This document shows, in pieces, positions 50,335-62,206 of a DNA stretch of 64,000 bases. The translations under genes and the position numbers were made by a program. Origin of the DNA: Clostridiaceae bacterium HFYG-1003 (GTDB lineage: Bacteria > Bacillota > Clostridia > Clostridiales > Clostridiaceae); contig CP102060.1 in NCBI GenBank assembly GCA_024579835.1, positions 372,001-436,000 of the forward strand, in the 5' to 3' direction. A model generated the notes under the pieces. The model saw only the letters and a program-made list of their open reading frames with translations, searched no databases and was not told the origin of the DNA. Positions within the stretch are counted from its first letter, which is position 1. Every line of letters begins with the position of its first letter.

Positions 50335-50403
50335 ACTTCATCCAGGACTTCATCCCGGACTTCATCCAGGACTTCATCCAGGACTAAGTCCAAGACTGCA
50401 TCC
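50335..50403. repeat. Tandem 12-bp units beside prfC
   Basis: Five and a half copies of ACTTCATCCAGG and variants lie between the terminator and the 3' end of prfC. The first four are nearly identical and the last two are degenerate. The unit is a multiple of three, which keeps a minus-strand frame open as LDEV repeats, but no start site or ribosome site supports translation. Confidence 0.9.
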
Positions 50404-50454: not shown

Positions 50455-52041
50455 TTAGCTGCCCAGGGCAGACAGAACCAGTCCCTTATTGTGGTCCAGA
50501 GCCCAGGCGATGCCCCACTCGTTGGAGAAAATGATGACATGACGGCCTTTGGAGTCAACCAGGCGCTTGGAGTCAGAGGTCAGAGACAACGCTTCCGGAT
50601 CCTTATCCCAGTGCTCAATCCAGCGGACATGGCAGTAGGAGAGCTGATCCAGGCGAATGTCGACGCCATACTCATTTTTAAGTCGGTATTCCAGAACTTC
50701 AAACTGCAGGACACCCACTACACCGGCGATGATTTCTTCCATTCCGGCATAGTCTTCTTTATAAACCTGGATAGCGCCTTCCTGGGCCACCTGAGTGATT
50801 CCCTTGACGAACTGCTTGCGCTTCATGGTGTCCACCGGCCGGATCCGGGCATAATGTTCCGGGGCAAATGCCGGGATGGGATCAAATTTAAACTTATTGG
50901 ACGCCGGGCAGAGCGTATCTCCAATGGAGAAAATGCCCGGATCGAATACACCGATGATGTCGCCGGCATAAGCTTCTTCGACAATTTCACGGTCCTGCGC
51001 CAGGAACTGCTGGGGCTGTGCCAGTTTAATCTTGCCCTTGCCTTCCATATGGAATACTTCCATGCCCCGTTCAAATTTCCCGGATACGATTCGCATAAAG
51101 GCGATTCGGTCGCGGTGAGCCGGGTTCATGTTGGCCTGAATTTTAAAAACGAAGGCCGAGAAGAATGGATCAAAGGGATGGATGGATCCCTGATCGGAAT
51201 TTCGTTTCAGCGGAGCCTGTGTCAGCTTGAGGAAATGTTCCAGGAAGGGTTCTACACCGAAGTTAGTCAGGGCAGAACCAAAGAAGACCGGAGACAGTTC
51301 CCCTTTGGAGACGGCTTCGAAATTGAAATCATCGCCGGCGATGTCCATCAGCTCGATGTCTTCTTTGAGCTTATCCAGCTGATGCGGCGCGATATGGGCC
51401 CGTTCTGACTCATTGTTCAGATCAATGATTTCGGTATCGGCTTCCTTGGATCCGTGCTTTCCGCCGGAGAACAGGAGGACTCGTTCCGCTTCACGTTCAT
51501 ACACGCCGGAAAATTCCTTGCCGGAACCCAGGGGCCAGTTCATGGGATAAGTCCGGATGCCGAGGACATCCTCGATTTCCTGCATCAGCTCAAAGGGATC
51601 CCGGGCTTCCCGGTCCATTTTATTGACAAAGGTAAAAACCGGGATTCCCCGCAGGGAACAGACCTGGAACAGCTTCTTCGTCTGTTCCTCCACGCCTTTG
51701 GCTCCGTCAATGACCATGACCGCTGAATCCGCCGCCATCAGGGTCCGGTAGGTATCCTCCGAGAAGTCCTGATGTCCGGGAGTATCCAGAATGTTGATGC
51801 AGAATCCGTCGTAGTTAAACTGCATGACGGAGGAGGTTACGGAGATTCCCCTCTGTTTTTCGATTTCCATCCAGTCACTGGTTGCGTGGCGGGCAGCCTT
51901 GCGTGCTTTGACCGAACCGGCCTCCCGGATCGCGCCTCCGTACAGCAGCAATTTTTCCGTCAGTGTCGTTTTACCGGCATCCGGATGGGATATGATGGCA
52001 AACGTTCGCCGTCTTTCTATTTCCTTACGTATATCGTCCAT
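50455..52041 (-). CDS. prfC: Peptide chain release factor 3
   Basis: The 528-residue GTPase recycles release factors 1 and 2 from the ribosome after termination. The G domain has the P-loop HPDAGKTT near residue 19, DTPGHQDF near residue 90, and NKMD near residue 144. The RF3-specific domain with QLSYCHVRWIEH near residue 475 closes it, at full length for the family. The ATG has a GGAGGTTT-like site on the minus strand. Confidence 0.95.
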   Translation of the reverse strand: MDDIRKEIERRRTFAIISHPDAGKTTLTEKLLLYGGAIREAGSVKARKAARHATSDWMEIEKQRGISVTSSVMQFNYDGFCINILDTPGHQDFSEDTYRTLMAADSAVMVIDGAKGVEEQTKKLFQVCSLRGIPVFTFVNKMDREARDPFELMQEIEDVLGIRTYPMNWPLGSGKEFSGVYEREAERVLLFSGGKHGSKEADTEIIDLNNESERAHIAPHQLDKLKEDIELMDIAGDDFNFEAVSKGELSPVFFGSALTNFGVEPFLEHFLKLTQAPLKRNSDQGSIHPFDPFFSAFVFKIQANMNPAHRDRIAFMRIVSGKFERGMEVFHMEGKGKIKLAQPQQFLAQDREIVEEAYAGDIIGVFDPGIFSIGDTLCPASNKFKFDPIPAFAPEHYARIRPVDTMKRKQFVKGITQVAQEGAIQVYKEDYAGMEEIIAGVVGVLQFEVLEYRLKNEYGVDIRLDQLSYCHVRWIEHWDKDPEALSLTSDSKRLVDSKGRHVIIFSNEWGIAWALDHNKGLVLSALGS

Positions 52042-52570
52042 GGGAAACCTCCCGATTTCATAGTCACAGTTCTAAAAAAAATCAAACATTACAAGTATAT
52101 ACGAAATAAGGATTAAAAAAAAGTGGATTTCGTAAACAGGCTGTTTCCCGATCTGATTCCGGTAGGACATGGATAGCGTGTGGAAATGATCGGGAAATTG
52201 TCAGTAAGTGGTTGGAAAGTGATCGGATGTTTTCGGCTGGCTCAGGACTGCTGGTTCAGGATTGCTGGTTAAGTACTGCTGGTTTAAAAAAGTTCATTAT
52301 TTCTGTTGGAAAAGAAAAAAATGAGAACATTTTATATCGAATGAGCACTAAAGAGCTTAATTTAGTAAAATAAACGTATAAATTTCGAGTGATTTATGAT
52401 GTTGCGATCACACTTGATTGAGCCGGGGAAGAAGGTGAAGATCGGCTTGGTCGCCATCTCACCCTTGACTGAGCCGACACGACTTTCTGAAGGAAACCTG
52501 CGGTGTGGTCAGGATCCGGATCTCATCGACGAATTGTTCGATTTAAATAAAAACAAGGAGTGACTACAGG
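52042..52570. other. Intergenic region with repeats before the haem module
   Basis: About 530 bases. Three and a half 14-bp units of the form CTGGTTCAGGATTG lie at 52237-52285. TCACACTTGATTGAGCCG at 52408-52425 recurs as TCACCCTTGACTGAGCCG at 52459-52476. The AT-rich stretch 52280-52395 probably contains the promoter of the haem module. No gene is seen. Confidence 0.5.
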
Positions 52571-52969
52571 ATGAATAGACATACGAAACGTACCGGACTG
52601 CTGCTGGCAGGACTCATGGCCGGTTCACTGCTGGTGGGGTGTTCCGCCGGTACGCCTGCAAACACTACTTCGGCGGCAACCTCTGCTGTGACAACCGCTG
52701 CACCAGCTACGACCCAGCCGGGGACTCAGACCACGGAACTGGAACTGACGCTGGAAGAACTGGCAAAATATGACGGAAAGAACGGCCAGCCTGCCTATGT
52801 GGCAGTGGATGGCATCATCTACGACGTGACGAATTCCCCGGCCTGGAAGGGCGGAGGCCACAACGGCTTTACGGCCGGCAAGGATCTCACGCAAGAAATC
52901 AAGAATGTGTCACCGCATGGAGTTTCCAAGCTGGGCAATGTTCCGGCTGTCGGCAAATTGAAAAAATAG
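52571..52969 (+). CDS. Cytochrome b5-like haem-binding lipoprotein
   Basis: The 132-residue protein has a lipoprotein signal ending in LLVGC (Cys 24), a Thr/Ala/Pro-rich linker (about 27-56), and a small cytochrome b5-like domain (57-132) with LAKYDGKNGQPAYVAVDG and YDVTNSPAW. The haem-ligand candidates are H97 in GGGHNGF and H116 in VSPHGVSK, both conserved positions in prokaryotic members. It would sit outside the membrane, bound by lipid. It is 12 bases before a small four-helix protein with two H-x13-H helices, and the pair looks like one electron-transfer unit. The ATG follows an AAGGAGTG site. Confidence 0.8.
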   Translation: MNRHTKRTGLLLAGLMAGSLLVGCSAGTPANTTSAATSAVTTAAPATTQPGTQTTELELTLEELAKYDGKNGQPAYVAVDGIIYDVTNSPAWKGGGHNGFTAGKDLTQEIKNVSPHGVSKLGNVPAVGKLKK

Positions 52970-52981
52970 GGGGTACAGCGG

Positions 52982-53377
52982 ATGGATTACCGACTCCTTG
53001 GTTACCTCAACGTTCTGATCGTGGGACTGCTGATTCTGCCGTTTATCCTGAACCGGATCAGCCGATATCTGTCAGCCGAGGCAAAAGCCGCCATGAAAGA
53101 CGTCACCAAATTCCTGCGGAAGCTGCATAAGCCATTAGGGATTGTATTTCTGGCAACGGGGCTCATCCACGGCTACCTGGCCCTGGGCGGCATTTCCCTT
53201 CATACCGGAACCCTGCTCTATGCAACCGTCATTGTCCAGGCCGGTCTGGGCGGCGCCTTCTACCGGACCAAGAAGAAAGGTCTGTTCAAAGCTCATCGGA
53301 TGATGGCATTTGTAATCGCGGGACTTCTCCTGCTTCACTATGTCGCGCCCGGCGCGCTGTATCAGCTGATCCGATAG
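52982..53377 (+). CDS. Small four-helix membrane protein, likely dihaem cytochrome b
   Basis: The 131-residue protein has four membrane helices (about 6-23, 48-68, 74-95, 104-124). In the second helix H49 and H63, and in the fourth H105 and H119, are each separated by exactly 13 residues. That H-x13-H spacing in two helices is how the bc1 cytochrome b and NOX/Steap-type proteins hold two stacked haems, one on each side of the membrane. H74 is a further histidine. The gene is 12 bases after the b5-like lipoprotein. I do not recognise a named family. Haem binding is inferred from spacing alone. Confidence 0.7.
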   Translation: MDYRLLGYLNVLIVGLLILPFILNRISRYLSAEAKAAMKDVTKFLRKLHKPLGIVFLATGLIHGYLALGGISLHTGTLLYATVIVQAGLGGAFYRTKKKGLFKAHRMMAFVIAGLLLLHYVAPGALYQLIR

Positions 53378-53493
53378 TAATTCTGAATGAAGTTGAAGCT
53401 TCACGGAAGGAAGACGTTTGGACGGCGATCGGTCCTTTGCGCGTGGTCATGGCGATGTTCCCTGACTGCGAATTCGATCGATCGCAACACTCA

Positions 53494-53539
53494 AGCAGCC
53501 GATGCCCTCTGGTCGATCCAGTGAGCATCGGCTGTTTTT
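53494..53539 (+). terminator. Terminator of the haem module
   Basis: AGCAGCCGATGC pairs with GCATCGGCTGTTTTT with one mismatch around a 19-base loop, followed by TTTTC. It lies 115 bases after the second gene. Confidence 0.75.
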
Positions 53540-53573
53540 CATCCAGGTGATTGAGCTCAGGTGCGGGGTACCA

Positions 53574-53924
53574 TTATAGGTCCGGTCGGATCTCGACCTC
53601 GTCGCCATAGATATCTTTCTCGAAGTCATAGAATTCATCTTCCGGAGAAGGAACTGGTTCCTCCGACAAGCAGGTTTCCAGCTCTTTGGAACGCACCAGA
53701 TCAGGGAGGGGTTGCTTAACCGGCTTGATTTCCGGCCGGATCACCTCAGTTGGCAGGTGTTCCACCTCATAACCTGTGCCAAGAGGCAGTTTTTCAACCT
53801 TCGGCTTCCTGATTTCCTCTTTCATTTCAGGCTCCGGTGTCTGGTCCGGCTGTTCTGTGACGGGCTTTCGTTCCTCGGCTTTGCTGCGGTCATGTTCTTT
53901 GTCTGAAGAATAATGTGTCACCAT
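53574..53924 (-). CDS. Acidic, Pro/Glu-rich, probably disordered protein
   Basis: The 116-residue protein has no hydrophobic core. It is rich in Glu, Pro and Lys (for example EQPDQTPEPEMKEEIRKPK) and ends acidic (DIYGDEVEIRPDL). The ATG at 53924 has AAAGGAGG, the strongest ribosome site nearby; a longer frame back to 54014 has none. I recognise no family. It is a monocistronic gene in a convergent position. Confidence 0.6.
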   Translation of the reverse strand: MVTHYSSDKEHDRSKAEERKPVTEQPDQTPEPEMKEEIRKPKVEKLPLGTGYEVEHLPTEVIRPEIKPVKQPLPDLVRSKELETCLSEEPVPSPEDEFYDFEKDIYGDEVEIRPDL

Positions 53925-57737: not shown

Positions 57738-58718
57738 ATGCAAATTACAAAGTACCTAACCAAACAGAAAATGATGAGGACAGTTCTTTGGAGTCTGCTT
57801 CCGATCTATCTATTTTCGATCTATCTGTTTGGCTGGAGGGTTCTCCTGGTGCTGGCCGTATCTCTTGTGAGCGCATTTGCCGGTGAATTGGTCATCATGC
57901 GAATGATTAATGGAGACAAGGCCAAGGTATCGGAAGCCGCTCTGGTCACCGCAGCACTCTTCACGCTGACGCTTCCTCCCACCATTCCGCTGTGGATCAC
58001 AGTGGTCGGCACTCTGTTCGGCATTATCTTTGGCAAAGCCATTTTTGGCGGATTCGGCAAGAATGTCTTCAATCCGGCTTTGGTTGGCCGCGCCTTTGTT
58101 TATGTCAGCTTTCCGATTCAGATGACGGTCAACTGGCAGAAGCCGTTCAGCGGGTTCCCCGGCGGATTCATGCACTGGGCAGGCACTGCGGATCTGGCTA
58201 CTTCCGTGACGCCCATGATCGACATGGAAGTCAACGGACTGTCCACCAATCCACTGAACCTGTTCATCGGAAATATTTCCGGATCCATGGGTGAAACCTC
58301 GGCCATTCTGATTCTTCTGGCTGCAGCCTACCTGATCTATACTAAGACTGCTTCCTGGAAGATTATGGCCTCAGTAGCTGCTTCGGGCATCGTGTTTACT
58401 CTGCTGTTCGGCGCCCTGGGCGGCCCGCAGGGGGATCCGGTGTTCTCGATTCTGTCCGGCGGCTTCCTGTTCGGTACCGTATTCATGGCCACGGATCCGG
58501 TATCGGCTCCCATGAAGGATACCTCCAAGATCCTGTACGGCATCCTGATCGGCTTTGTCACCATGGTCATTCGGAGTTTCTCTCTCTTTACGGAAGGCAT
58601 GATGTTTGCCATTCTGATCGCCAACTCCTTTGCCCCCCTGATTGACCTGAACGTTAAGAACTGGGAGGCGAAGAAAAAAGCGAAAGCCGCTCCCCCACCA
58701 TTCAAGGAGGTGAAATAG
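57738..58718 (+). CDS. RnfD/NqrB-type membrane subunit
   Basis: The 326-residue subunit has about nine membrane helices. It is close to RnfD in length and shorter than typical NqrB, but its place before a NqrC/D/E/F-type series makes it the NqrB/RnfD part of a Nqr-like complex. The helix-bound FMN site is likely T155 in GTADLATSVTP. The closing loop FMATDPVSAPMKD holds the family's D-P-V-S motif. A TATAAT box at 57697-57702 is a likely -10 of the operon. The next gene starts one base after its stop. Confidence 0.88.
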   Translation: MQITKYLTKQKMMRTVLWSLLPIYLFSIYLFGWRVLLVLAVSLVSAFAGELVIMRMINGDKAKVSEAALVTAALFTLTLPPTIPLWITVVGTLFGIIFGKAIFGGFGKNVFNPALVGRAFVYVSFPIQMTVNWQKPFSGFPGGFMHWAGTADLATSVTPMIDMEVNGLSTNPLNLFIGNISGSMGETSAILILLAAAYLIYTKTASWKIMASVAASGIVFTLLFGALGGPQGDPVFSILSGGFLFGTVFMATDPVSAPMKDTSKILYGILIGFVTMVIRSFSLFTEGMMFAILIANSFAPLIDLNVKNWEAKKKAKAAPPPFKEVK

Positions 58719-58719
58719 C

Positions 58720-59322
58720 ATGAAAAAAGGATATCAGTATACCGTTATCTTCATGATCATCGTTGCCAGCTTTTTCACCGCACTGCTCTCCACCGCGCAG
58801 ACGGCCATGAATCCGAAGATTGCCGAAAACAAGGAGATCGCCCGCCGTCAGGCCATTCTGTACGCCTTTGACGTTCCCAGCGGCCAGACCAATGAGGAGG
58901 TCAGCCAGACCTATGACAAATACGTCAAGCCGGATACCCGGACCATCGAGGGAACGTCCATTGAAGCGTTCCAGCTGGTGGATGATGCCGGCCAGGTAAA
59001 GGGCTACGCCTTCCCCTTCGACGGCCCTGCCCTGTGGGGGACCATCCGTGGCTATCTCGCCGTGACGGAAGACCTGAAAGAAATCAAGGGTCTGACCTTT
59101 ACCGAGCAGAACGAAACTCCTGGTCTGGGCGGACGAATTGATGAAGAACCCTTCAAGAATCAGTGGCGCGGTGTGCCGCTGCCCGATGGCGATCTGGCCT
59201 ATGGCATCATCGGCGACAAGAAGGTGGATGCCATCTCCGGAGCAACCCAGTCTTCCACGGCAGTGACAAAAGCACTGAACATACTGAAGCAAAACGTCAT
59301 TTCCAAATGGGAGGTAAAATAA
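58720..59322 (+). CDS. RnfG/NqrC-type flavin-bound subunit
   Basis: The 200-residue subunit has one N-terminal membrane helix and a FMN-binding domain outside the membrane. The flavinylation motif is DAISGATQSSTAVT with T176 as the covalent FMN site. It needs an ApbE flavin transferase, which is not in this window. Its start is one base after the previous stop and its stop overlaps the next start (TAATG). Confidence 0.92.
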   Translation: MKKGYQYTVIFMIIVASFFTALLSTAQTAMNPKIAENKEIARRQAILYAFDVPSGQTNEEVSQTYDKYVKPDTRTIEGTSIEAFQLVDDAGQVKGYAFPFDGPALWGTIRGYLAVTEDLKEIKGLTFTEQNETPGLGGRIDEEPFKNQWRGVPLPDGDLAYGIIGDKKVDAISGATQSSTAVTKALNILKQNVISKWEVK

Positions 59323-59987
59323 TGGCTACCGAATCAGCAAAACAAGTCGCGATCCGAAATATCTGGACCGATAACCAGGTTCTGCGCCAGATTCTTGGCA
59401 TCTGTTCCTCCCTGGCGGTAACCAACCGGATGCAGAATTCTCTGGTTATGGGGCTCGGTGTGCTGTTTGCCACCGCTCTGTCCAGCCTCACGGTTTCCGC
59501 CATGCGGAATCTGATCCCGCAGAGGATCCGTATGATCATTCAGGTTCTGATCATTTCCTTCTACGTCATCATTGTCAACATCATCCTGCAGGCTTTCCTG
59601 CCGGATATTTCCAAACAGCTGGGACCCTATGTCGGTCTGATCATTACCAACTGCATCATCATGGGCCGGATGGAAGCCTACGCGGCCAAGAATCCTCCGC
59701 TGATCTCGATGCTGGACGGAATGTTCGCCGGTCTTGGCTACACCATCGTTCTTTTGATCATTTCCTTCATCCGTGAAATTCTGGGCTTTGGCACCGTGTT
59801 CGGCATGGCGCTGCCCTTTGAATTCACTAAGTGGACCCTGATGGTCATGCCGCCTGCCGCCTTCTTCATCATTGGCACACTGGTCTGGGCTGTCAACAAT
59901 TACCAGGCCGGCCGAGAAGAACGCCAGGGCATTGTCCGCTCCGGCAGTCTGACCGTCCAGAAAAAACCGGAAGGGGGAACGAACTAA
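59322..59987 (+). CDS. RnfE/NqrD-type membrane subunit
   Basis: The 221-residue subunit has six membrane helices. The two membrane cysteines that help hold a 2Fe-2S cluster with the partner RnfA/NqrE are visible as C28 in LGICSSLAV and C111 in IITNCIIMG. The start at 59322 follows GGGAGGT and overlaps the previous stop. Gene order (after RnfG, before RnfA) matches both rnf and nqr operons. Confidence 0.92.
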   Translation: MATESAKQVAIRNIWTDNQVLRQILGICSSLAVTNRMQNSLVMGLGVLFATALSSLTVSAMRNLIPQRIRMIIQVLIISFYVIIVNIILQAFLPDISKQLGPYVGLIITNCIIMGRMEAYAAKNPPLISMLDGMFAGLGYTIVLLIISFIREILGFGTVFGMALPFEFTKWTLMVMPPAAFFIIGTLVWAVNNYQAGREERQGIVRSGSLTVQKKPEGGTN

Positions 59988-60586
59988 TGGAAGTTGCACC
60001 GAATATCAGCCCGATTGTCATTTTCTTCGCGTCGATTTTCACATCCAACATGATCCTGTCGAATTTCCTGGGGATGTGTTCCTACCTCTCCGTTTCCAGT
60101 GAATTCAAGACAGCCAACGGACTGGGCAAGGCCGTTGTTCTGGTTCTGGTCATCACCAACTCGGTGAACTGGCTTTTGAACAAGTACGTCATCATGCCTC
60201 TTGGCATTGAATATCTGTCCTTCATTATCTACATCATGGTCATCGCGGCCATTGTCCAGATCCTGGAAATGGCGCTGGATCGCTATCTGCCGGATCTGCA
60301 CTCCAAGCTGGGTATTTTCCTTCCTCTGATTACGGTCAACTGTGCCGTGCTCGGAGCTACCCTGTTCCAGGATATCCGCAACTACAGCTTCCTGCAGACG
60401 TTCCTGTTCAACCTGGGATCCGGCATTGGCTGGTGGATGGCCATTTCCATGCTGGCCGCCATCAAGGAGAAGATCTCCAAGAACAAGATGCCGCGCGGTT
60501 TGCAGGGCATCGGCATATCCTTCATCATCACCGGCATCATGGCCCTGGCGTTCATTGGATTCTCCGGCATCTTCGTAATACAGTAG
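59987..60586 (+). CDS. RnfA/NqrE-type membrane subunit
   Basis: The 199-residue subunit has six membrane helices in a pattern related by internal inversion to its partner. C31 in LGMCSYLSV and C119 in TVNCAVLGA mirror those of the RnfE/NqrD subunit and should complete the intramembrane iron-sulfur site. Its start overlaps the previous stop (TAATG). Confidence 0.92.
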   Translation: MEVAPNISPIVIFFASIFTSNMILSNFLGMCSYLSVSSEFKTANGLGKAVVLVLVITNSVNWLLNKYVIMPLGIEYLSFIIYIMVIAAIVQILEMALDRYLPDLHSKLGIFLPLITVNCAVLGATLFQDIRNYSFLQTFLFNLGSGIGWWMAISMLAAIKEKISKNKMPRGLQGIGISFIITGIMALAFIGFSGIFVIQ

Positions 60587-60601
60587 GGAGGCGAGCAAAA
60601 C

Positions 60602-61711
60602 ATGATTCAAGATATTTTGACCGGCACCTTTAGTATTACAGCCATCGCCGGCGGCCTGGCCGTGATCATTTCGGTGGCGGAGCGCTACCTGAACAACTAC
60701 GGCGAATGCAAGATCGACATTAATGACGGAACCAAGGAACTGGTGGTGGACGGCGGAAACAATCTTCTGACCACTTTATCCGACAAAAAGCTCTTTATTC
60801 CTTCCGCATGCGGCGGCAAAGCCACCTGTGGCCTGTGCAAGGTCCAGGTGTTTGAAGGGGCCGGCCCTCTGCTGCCCACTGAGGAACCTTACCTGACCCA
60901 GAAAGAACGGGACAACCACTACCGACTGGCCTGTCAGATCAAGGTCAAAGGAAACATGAAACTGGGCATTCCGGAAGAACTGTTCAACATCAAGGAATAC
61001 AATACCAGACTGGTTTCCCTGAAGGATCTGACCTACGACATCAAAGAGCTGCGCATGGAGCTCCCGGCCGGTGAAACCGTCAATTTCAAGGCGGGACAGT
61101 TCATGCAGTTCTATACCAAACCCTATGACAAGGTGAAGGAAGAGGTCTTCCGGGCCTATTCCATTTCATCACCCCCTCAGGACAACAATCATGTGGAACT
61201 GGTCATTCGCCAGGTACCGGAAGGCCTCTGCTCAACCTATGTCCACAAGCATCTCAAGGAAGGGGATCAGGTCCGGCTGTCCGGCCCCTACGGAGATTTC
61301 TACTACCGAGGCAACTGCGACACCATGATCATGGTAGCGGCCGGTTCAGGACTTGCGCCGATGCGCTCTCTGATCTACGACAACCTGCATAAGAAGGTGC
61401 CCGTGGACATGGTCTTCTACTTCGGAGCCAGAGCCCAGGATGATCTCTACTACATCGAAGAGTTCACCAAGCTGGCCGAGGAAAACGAAAACTTTACATT
61501 TATTCCCACCCTGTCCCGGCCGGATGAGGGTTGGACCGGCGACAAGGGCCGTGTCACCGATCTGCTGGATCGAGATCTGGAAGACGGAACCGGCGCCCAG
61601 GGCAAGGAAGCCTATCTGTGCGGATCCCCGGGGTTCCTGAAGTCCGTGAATGAAATGCTGATGAAAAAGGGCTTCGACAAGGAAACCCAGATATTCTATG
61701 ACGAATTCTAG
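60602..61711 (+). CDS. nqrF: NqrF-type NADH dehydrogenase subunit (2Fe-2S, FAD)
   Basis: The 369-residue subunit has one N-terminal membrane helix (about 6-28), a ferredoxin domain with C70-x5-C76-x2-C79 and C111, and a flavodoxin-reductase-like part with the FAD motif RAYSISSPP near residue 180, the NAD loop VAAGSGLAPMRSL near residue 245, and an aromatic C-terminal end (YDEF). It should oxidise NADH and feed electrons to the membrane subunits. An rnfC or rnfB gene would be the alternative here, but neither is present. The gene is 15 bases after the RnfA-type gene, with a GGGAGGCG site. Confidence 0.92.
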   Translation: MIQDILTGTFSITAIAGGLAVIISVAERYLNNYGECKIDINDGTKELVVDGGNNLLTTLSDKKLFIPSACGGKATCGLCKVQVFEGAGPLLPTEEPYLTQKERDNHYRLACQIKVKGNMKLGIPEELFNIKEYNTRLVSLKDLTYDIKELRMELPAGETVNFKAGQFMQFYTKPYDKVKEEVFRAYSISSPPQDNNHVELVIRQVPEGLCSTYVHKHLKEGDQVRLSGPYGDFYYRGNCDTMIMVAAGSGLAPMRSLIYDNLHKKVPVDMVFYFGARAQDDLYYIEEFTKLAEENENFTFIPTLSRPDEGWTGDKGRVTDLLDRDLEDGTGAQGKEAYLCGSPGFLKSVNEMLMKKGFDKETQIFYDEF

Positions 61712-61723
61712 GAGGTGCCGGAA

Positions 61724-62206
61724 ATGAAAGTCAGGCCCGAAATGAAACCCATCGAACAGGACATGCAGCCCGGCCGGCTGACGCTGGACGGTTATCTCGG
61801 AGAGGACACCAGATCCCTTGAAACCATCATCAATGAAGACCGCATGGTGCTGGAAGACTTCAATGTCACCGCAGAAGCCATCGGCAAAGTCATGCGGCGG
61901 CTGACCCGCGCGGGGATGGAGGCTCAGGGGGAACCGGTCGTGTTTGACGGCTTTGAGGTGGAAGTTACCGAGTACATGGGCTGGCTGGGATGTCCCTTCA
62001 AGGACAACCGCAAGTTCGGCAAGCGCATCACCAATGTGACGGATCTTGCCACCGGAGAACACCTCAACTGGACCGATGTCGGAATTCATCTGATCAAGGA
62101 CCATGGATTTTTCCAGGGAATCGGTTCGCCGTTCCGCCTGGAACCAGTCAAACTGGTGGAGTTTCTGCGGATGCAGCAGCGCCAGAGTGAGGAACCAGCC
62201 AGGTAA
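61724..62206 (+). CDS. Unknown protein encoded last in the Nqr-like operon
   Basis: I do not recognise this 160-residue protein. It is soluble and acidic with no signal peptide or membrane helix. A single cysteine lies in MGWLGCPFKDN near residue 89. It starts 12 bases after nqrF, with GGAGG eight bases before the ATG, and is the last gene before the terminator, so it is clearly part of the operon. It does not resemble NqrA, RnfB, RnfC or ApbE. It might be a new subunit or an assembly or regulatory factor. Confidence 0.7.
   Translation: MKVRPEMKPIEQDMQPGRLTLDGYLGEDTRSLETIINEDRMVLEDFNVTAEAIGKVMRRLTRAGMEAQGEPVVFDGFEVEVTEYMGWLGCPFKDNRKFGKRITNVTDLATGEHLNWTDVGIHLIKDHGFFQGIGSPFRLEPVKLVEFLRMQQRQSEEPAR

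Follow-up and report, generated by a model that had tools for sequence, protein, structure and literature searches.

A b5 lipoprotein and a four-helix membrane protein as a candidate minimal haem electron conduit in a Clostridiaceae bacterium

Two neighboring genes of Clostridiaceae bacterium HFYG-1003 probably encode a minimal b-haem electron conduit that would carry electrons across the cytoplasmic membrane, to or from an outer b5 haem. We put the probability of this reading at roughly 0.6. The genes are located on the plus strand of a 64,000-nucleotide stretch of contig CP102060.1 (hereafter the window), in which all positions below are numbered. The first gene (52571..52969) codes for a 132-residue b5 lipoprotein, and the second (52982..53377), starting 12 bases after the stop codon of the first, codes for a 131-residue, 14.4-kDa four-helix membrane protein that is a candidate dihaem cytochrome b. 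The membrane protein would bind one b haem on the inner side through H49 and H105 and a second on the outer side through H63 and H119, and it would exchange electrons with the b5 haem of the lipoprotein tethered to the outer face. Haem occupancy, this pairing of the histidines, and contact of the two proteins are what we infer. Counted in favor of the conduit are a natural b5 fusion (L064), an FMN domain found at the same end of other homologues, near-invariant histidines, and the charge pattern of the membrane protein. Counted against it are 17 of 25 class genomes in which no b5 gene adjoins that of the membrane protein, a b5-linked homologue (L008) that lacks H119, the lack of a ferrochelatase, of a convincing AhbD, and of a cytoplasmic reductase gene next to the pair, and the lack of a Pfam score above the cut-off or a significant fold match.

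Residues 60-130 of the lipoprotein are a cytochrome b5 domain (PF00173, 35.9 bits, above the curated cut-off of 23.7), and Cys24 is a lipobox cysteine in the motif LVGC (codon 52640..52642, plus strand). Its only histidines are at positions 4, 97, and 116. In a phmmer search the protein matched 6nzx (E 1.3e-15), and H97 (codon 52859..52861) and H116 (codon 52916..52918, both plus strand) aligned with histidines of 6nzx, filling by this alignment the two axial histidine positions of the b5 family. The first-pass annotation, made from the DNA letters, had called the protein a b5-like lipoprotein with these two residues as candidate haem ligands, a description with which the domain match, the lipobox, and the alignment all agree. 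On sequence grounds, the lipoprotein is a candidate binder of haem b. The solved b5 structure 6NZX, which is archaeal according to PMC7096707, shares the b5 domain and the two aligned histidines, but it is a soluble domain, whereas the window gene has a lipoprotein anchor and a membrane partner.

The second gene product carries two H-x13-H pairs, H49/H63 and H105/H119. An AlphaFold2 model, built on an alignment of five sequences, has helices at residues 4-27, 32-68, 75-96, and 99-121 and a short one at 125-130 (mean pLDDT 83.7), which puts one pair in helix 2 and the other in helix 4. The open reading frame and the model thus bore out the annotation's account of a 131-residue, four-helix protein encoded 12 bases downstream, with H-x13-H in its second and fourth helices. 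The respective codons, all on the plus strand, are 53126..53128 (H49), 53168..53170 (H63), 53294..53296 (H105), and 53336..53338 (H119). The distribution of lysine and arginine is uneven: eight in the loop between helices 1 and 2, six in that between helices 3 and 4, none in the loop between helices 2 and 3, and one in each tail. Lys/Arg-rich loops of membrane proteins face the cytoplasm (the positive-inside rule). Taken together, the charge pattern and this rule predict that both termini are outside, on the side of the lipoprotein, and that helices 2 and 4 run in the same direction. This direction would place H49 and H105 on the inner side of the membrane and H63 and H119 on the outer side, i.e., the arrangement of two stacked haems. 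Another histidine, H74, is not considered a candidate ligand, as it is replaced by Asn in L016 and is not His in further alignment rows.

When the sequence of the membrane protein was shuffled, two or more H-x13-H pairs appeared in 1125 of 200,000 shuffles, so one sequence by itself carries modest weight. The same frequency speaks for an alternative in which the histidines do not bind haem at all, serving as metal sites or in helix packing, with the b5 adjacency being incidental. Homologues provide a stronger criterion. A protein search of 58 genomes, which covered that of the window and those closest to it, gave matches in four, the window's own among them, and two other searched genomes of the window's genus had no match to the membrane protein. 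A contig scan of genomes then gave four relatives (L005-L008) whose best segments were 39-48% identical. A profile made from the window sequence and these four relatives was run on 391 genomes of the class and matched in 37, of which 25 were kept. The 12 dropped genomes comprised ten with matches inside frames of ~880-924 aa and two (G022 and G400) with weak partial matches; two paralogue rows from kept genomes were not counted separately. In a second sample, 18 of 338 genomes of the phylum matched, two of which (the window's own and G116) were already in the class sample.

We aligned 34 membrane domains, most of which share 20-48% identity with the window protein. The only invariant columns are H49, H63, G76, and H105, and H119 is present in 33. 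Conservation in the family is highest at the paired histidines of helices 2 and 4. Homologues without the paired histidines had been named with the original proposal as a point that would tell against it. All four histidines are kept in 33 of the 34 domains, but the remaining one (L008:6001-6357) is b5-linked, and its helix 4 has a shortened end that lacks H119; decay, an error, or a one-haem variant are candidate readings of this form. Near-invariance of exactly these four residues across the 34 homologues, together with 15 linked loci and one fusion, makes a non-haem role of the histidines very improbable, and haem binding is the reading carried forward here.

A b5 gene is adjacent or, in one case, fused to the membrane protein gene in 15 loci, distantly related anaerobes included. 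It is directly upstream in all four relatives from the contig scan. The class sample contains eight such genomes among the 25 (the window, L012, L014, L016, L026, L031, L075, and L064), and the phylum sample contributes L111, L114, and L115. In L031 the b5 gene is downstream of the membrane protein gene, and in L064 the two are a single 240-residue protein with an N-terminal membrane part and a C-terminal b5 part. Both b5 histidines are retained in all 18 b5 domains encoded at the 15 linked loci, as counted with a b5 profile that, like the one for the neighborhood scans, was built from the window b5 sequence alone. Among the 14 separate b5 proteins of these loci, 11 match a simple lipobox pattern; the exceptions are L005 (a signal without a lipobox), L007 (cut by the contig end), and L115 (a near-fit). 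The L005 protein (L005:5110-5880) is an outward protein with three tandem b5 domains, whose gene immediately precedes that of the membrane protein, and the truncated L007 gene encodes at least two. The L115 protein scored 104 bits with the window b5 profile, yet it had no Pfam match at E<=1e-5.

The other 17 of the 25 genomes kept from the class sample have no b5 gene next to that of the membrane protein; linkage is therefore frequent, not constant, and the constant linkage that was to support the original proposal was not observed. When the b5 label is mapped on a 42-homologue tree, it requires 8 changes, at least 6 of them forced by starred branches, compared with a shuffled mean of 12.6, which indicates repeated gain or loss of the pairing. 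We also examined the relationship from the b5 side. A b5 search of the class sample returned 40 rows from 37 genomes, in which 13 outward proteins with both histidines were counted and two rows (L070 and L073) were dropped because they lacked the histidines. Eight of the 13 are adjacent or fused to the membrane protein, four occur in genomes that have it elsewhere (G119, G146, G170, and G317), and one is in a genome without it (G283). None of the 24 remaining b5 rows examined (a second G297 row was left out) had a membrane-profile match in the fetched stretch.

Other homologues of the membrane protein are standalone, have a C-terminal FMN-binding domain, or are encoded beside Nqr-like or Rnf genes. 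Nine rows of the 42-row tree have an FMN-binding-like part C-terminal to the membrane part, as confirmed by Pfam in L019 and judged by eye from length and motif in the others. These nine and L118 form a starred group of ten, and support for the nine as one clade is weak (64/34). The L019 gene (L019:2-2340), which joins the membrane core to FMN_bind, directly follows genes for an Rnf-Nqr membrane protein and an RnfB-like ferredoxin. The direct partner in the window is b5 and not an FMN-binding protein, the FMN_bind protein of the window being NqrC, ~5 kb away. The occurrence of the same membrane core with either b5 or FMN on the outside argues for electron transfer. The earlier notion of a transmembrane relay to or from the outer lipoprotein draws support from the conserved histidines, the recurrent b5, the predicted outer position of the C-terminal partner domains, and the co-occurrence with NqrF-like genes described below, and is weakened by the inconstant linkage.

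As the first-pass annotation had also recorded, the organism has an Nqr-like complex: Pfam and NCBIfam identified nqrB, C, D, E, and F genes at 57738..61711 (plus strand), 4.4 kb from the gene pair. They are a possible electron source, connected with the pair by co-occurrence statistics only. We called NqrF-like genes by a first domain of at least 148 bits and found them in 20 of the 391 class genomes, i.e., in 12 of 25 with the membrane protein versus 8 of 366 others (Fisher p 2e-11, uncorrected for kinship). Counted by family, with 86 families estimated from family codes, seven were shared (p 6e-6), and kinship both below and above the family level remains in these figures. Directly after nqrF in the window is a 163-aa gene (61715..62206, plus strand) with no Pfam match. 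In three genomes of one genus (L013, L015, and L017), the membrane protein gene follows a homologue of this gene, which is itself preceded in L013 and L017 by an NqrF-like gene (Pfam-checked in L013); the L015 stretch starts too late to include this region. The 163-aa gene occurs in 13 of the 391 class genomes, one match being a fragment. NqrA had no match anywhere in the window genome. Its cut-off was passed by none of the 12 genomes with a full 163-aa match; eight of these had weak matches, two of which (L098 and L099) looked by eye like RnfC encoded in separate Rnf clusters. One gene of the window genome that resembles MenA scored 225.5 bits, below the cut-off of 289. Among the window genes next to the pair, we found no cytoplasmic reductase gene. 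The donor of electrons to the conduit, which may be the Nqr-like complex, a quinol, or a cytoplasmic reductase, the direction of flow, for which outward is favored, and the last partner on the outside are the least certain points of the proposed mechanism.

Likeness of the membrane protein to known haem-b membrane families is weak but consistent. The window protein scored below the respective Pfam cut-offs for DUF4405 (PF14358, 17.0 bits versus 26.7), Ferric_reduct/MsrQ-like proteins (PF01794, 17.6 versus 28), and prokaryotic cytochrome b561 (PF01292, 16.3 versus 30.1). At E<=0.01, the 34 family members gave matches to Ferric_reduct in 13 cases, DUF4405 in 11, and Ni_hydr_CYTB in 9. The top match of a profile search of PDB sequences was SpNOX (E 0.011), and Foldseek with the AlphaFold2 model returned no match at E<=0.001. 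The VIA list contained the designed dihaem protein 4D2 (7ah0, Z 10.0, 101 aligned residues, 3.2 A) and CybB (5oc0, Z 9.6, 115 aligned residues, 3.1 A), with unrelated bundles at similar Z, as well as STEAP, NOX, and cytochrome b6 chains, all with Z <12 and among unrelated bundles; absence of a family from this list is uninformative. The profile and structure-prediction check proposed along with the original annotation gave a model with the expected four helices, and neither a Foldseek match nor a score above a Pfam cut-off.

These matches also bear on a second alternative, i.e., that the membrane protein is a ferric, superoxide, or quinone oxidoreductase that works on its own, similar to CybB or to NOX/STEAP proteins, with b5 as an accessory and a role in iron assimilation or detoxification, not in respiration. 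The SpNOX profile likeness, the Ferric_reduct matches in 13 of 34 members, and the presence of CybB in the VIA list speak for it. However, the 131 residues contain no NAD or flavin domain, no iron transporter gene was noted next to the two genes in the window, and NqrF-like genes are overrepresented in genomes that carry the membrane protein. We consider this alternative unlikely, though it overlaps with the conduit reading in its haem chemistry.

Comparison with individual systems suggested both common and distinct features. In the available part of PMC11334425, the DUF4405 and FezC membrane cytochromes bind haem b and, like the window family, have four conserved central histidines. Unlike the window protein with its four helices, DUF4405 proteins have six transmembrane segments according to the same text, and FezC forms its sites by homodimerization, whereas the window protein holds all four histidines itself. 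The term cytochrome b5, the partner in the window, does not occur in the text of PMC11334425 that was available. The MsrQ-like, flavinylation-linked systems resemble the window pair in combining a membrane electron carrier with an exported cofactor domain, but MsrQ-like proteins have six predicted helices (both points from the available part of PMC8238504), and the exported cofactor in the window would be b5 haem. The main text of PMC8238504 mentions neither cytochrome b5 nor DUF4405. Four histidines of SpNOX (PDB 8qt6), which has the NOX/STEAP core, align with those of the window protein, but at E 0.011 only; its second pair is one residue shorter, and the window protein is without the FAD/NADPH domain. 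CybB, the E. coli superoxide oxidase of the b561 family, and the designed proteins 4D2 and CytbX are, like the proposed structure, four-helix dihaem bundles, although Z values of 9.6-10 for helical bundles may reflect a common arrangement only. We know of no b5 partner for CybB or the designed dihaem proteins. CytbX is artificial, and the available part of PMC10120048 gives its inter-haem distance as shorter than that in bc1. We consider the product of the second gene a small protein related, through descent or convergence, to bis-His membrane cytochromes.

Haem supply is a separate question. Neither the window genome nor any of 15 other genomes with both proteins yielded a ferrochelatase match; the 15 are 11 from the class sample (seven linked and four unlinked) and L005-L008, with L111, L114, and L115 outside this screen. 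For AhbD, the best match in the window genome was unconvincing (70.6 bits versus a cut-off of 500), and radical-SAM matches below the cut-off occur in control genomes too. If these organisms do not make haem, as the missing ferrochelatase suggests, the haem of the conduit would have to be taken from the surroundings. The same finding, ferrochelatase in 0 of 16 genomes, is the main point for a third alternative, in which the lipoprotein captures haem outside the cell and the histidines of the four-helix protein pass it inward. The lack of the enzyme may, however, be plain background of the class. In addition, a related group of membrane proteins bears FMN-binding domains, which are redox parts, family members adjoin Rnf or Nqr-like genes, and two histidine pairs in two parallel helices are a pattern of fixed cofactors. 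Haem import is thus doubtful, somewhat more so than the oxidoreductase alternative.

Under the preferred conduit reading, the membrane core would be a variant of a known bis-His type, and what appears new, judged by the searchable papers, is its form with an exported b5 haem. This literature, with most subscription papers and bioRxiv outside its scope, described neither the pairing of a b5 lipoprotein with a four-helix dihaem protein nor an Nqr lacking NqrA; as evidence of novelty, this is weak. If two haems are indeed bound, the 14.4-kDa protein would carry one per ~7 kDa, below the 11.1 kDa per haem of the smallest dihaem b-type cytochrome in a 2019 survey of solved structures (PMC7096707, from the part available), and designed proteins such as CytbX would gain a natural counterpart. 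The known exported flavin and c-type carriers would then be joined by an exported b5 haem, either single or in tandem. Given the apparent lack of haem synthesis, the system is predicted to be active only when haem is supplied. A more speculative extension, to which we assign little probability, is haem-switched outward respiration, in which scavenged haem loads a wire that serves as the outlet of an NqrA-less Nqr-like pump in anaerobes that do not make haem. Equally tentative is the composition of this wire, i.e., two haems in the 14-kDa membrane protein followed by the haem of the b5 lipoprotein, or by three b5 domains in L005.

Several observations concern the surroundings of these genes. 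A different, apparently cytosolic type of b5 adjoins [NiFe] hydrogenase-like genes in many Clostridia, mostly as judged by eye. Pfam, run here on L043 and L060 only, confirmed the [NiFe] hydrogenase large subunit in L060 (L060:1222-3210), near a b5 of the cytosolic type, and L043:1273-2595 encodes a b5 domain fused to a hydrogenase small subunit. Genes beside L009-L011 had by eye resembled those of a V-type ATPase, an assignment that was set aside, as the one tested, in L011, had no Pfam match at E<=1e-5. No tRNA was found in the whole window, and no match to promoter-like or terminator-like consensus sequences was detected at 52040-53800. The single Rfam match, far from the pair, is a fluoride riboswitch at 1161-1244 (37.4 bits versus 34). 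Finally, two short tandem repeats, at 50335-50403 (a 12-base unit, 5.8 copies) and 52236-52284 (a 14-base unit, 3.5 copies), flank a long minus-strand open reading frame at 50455-52041.
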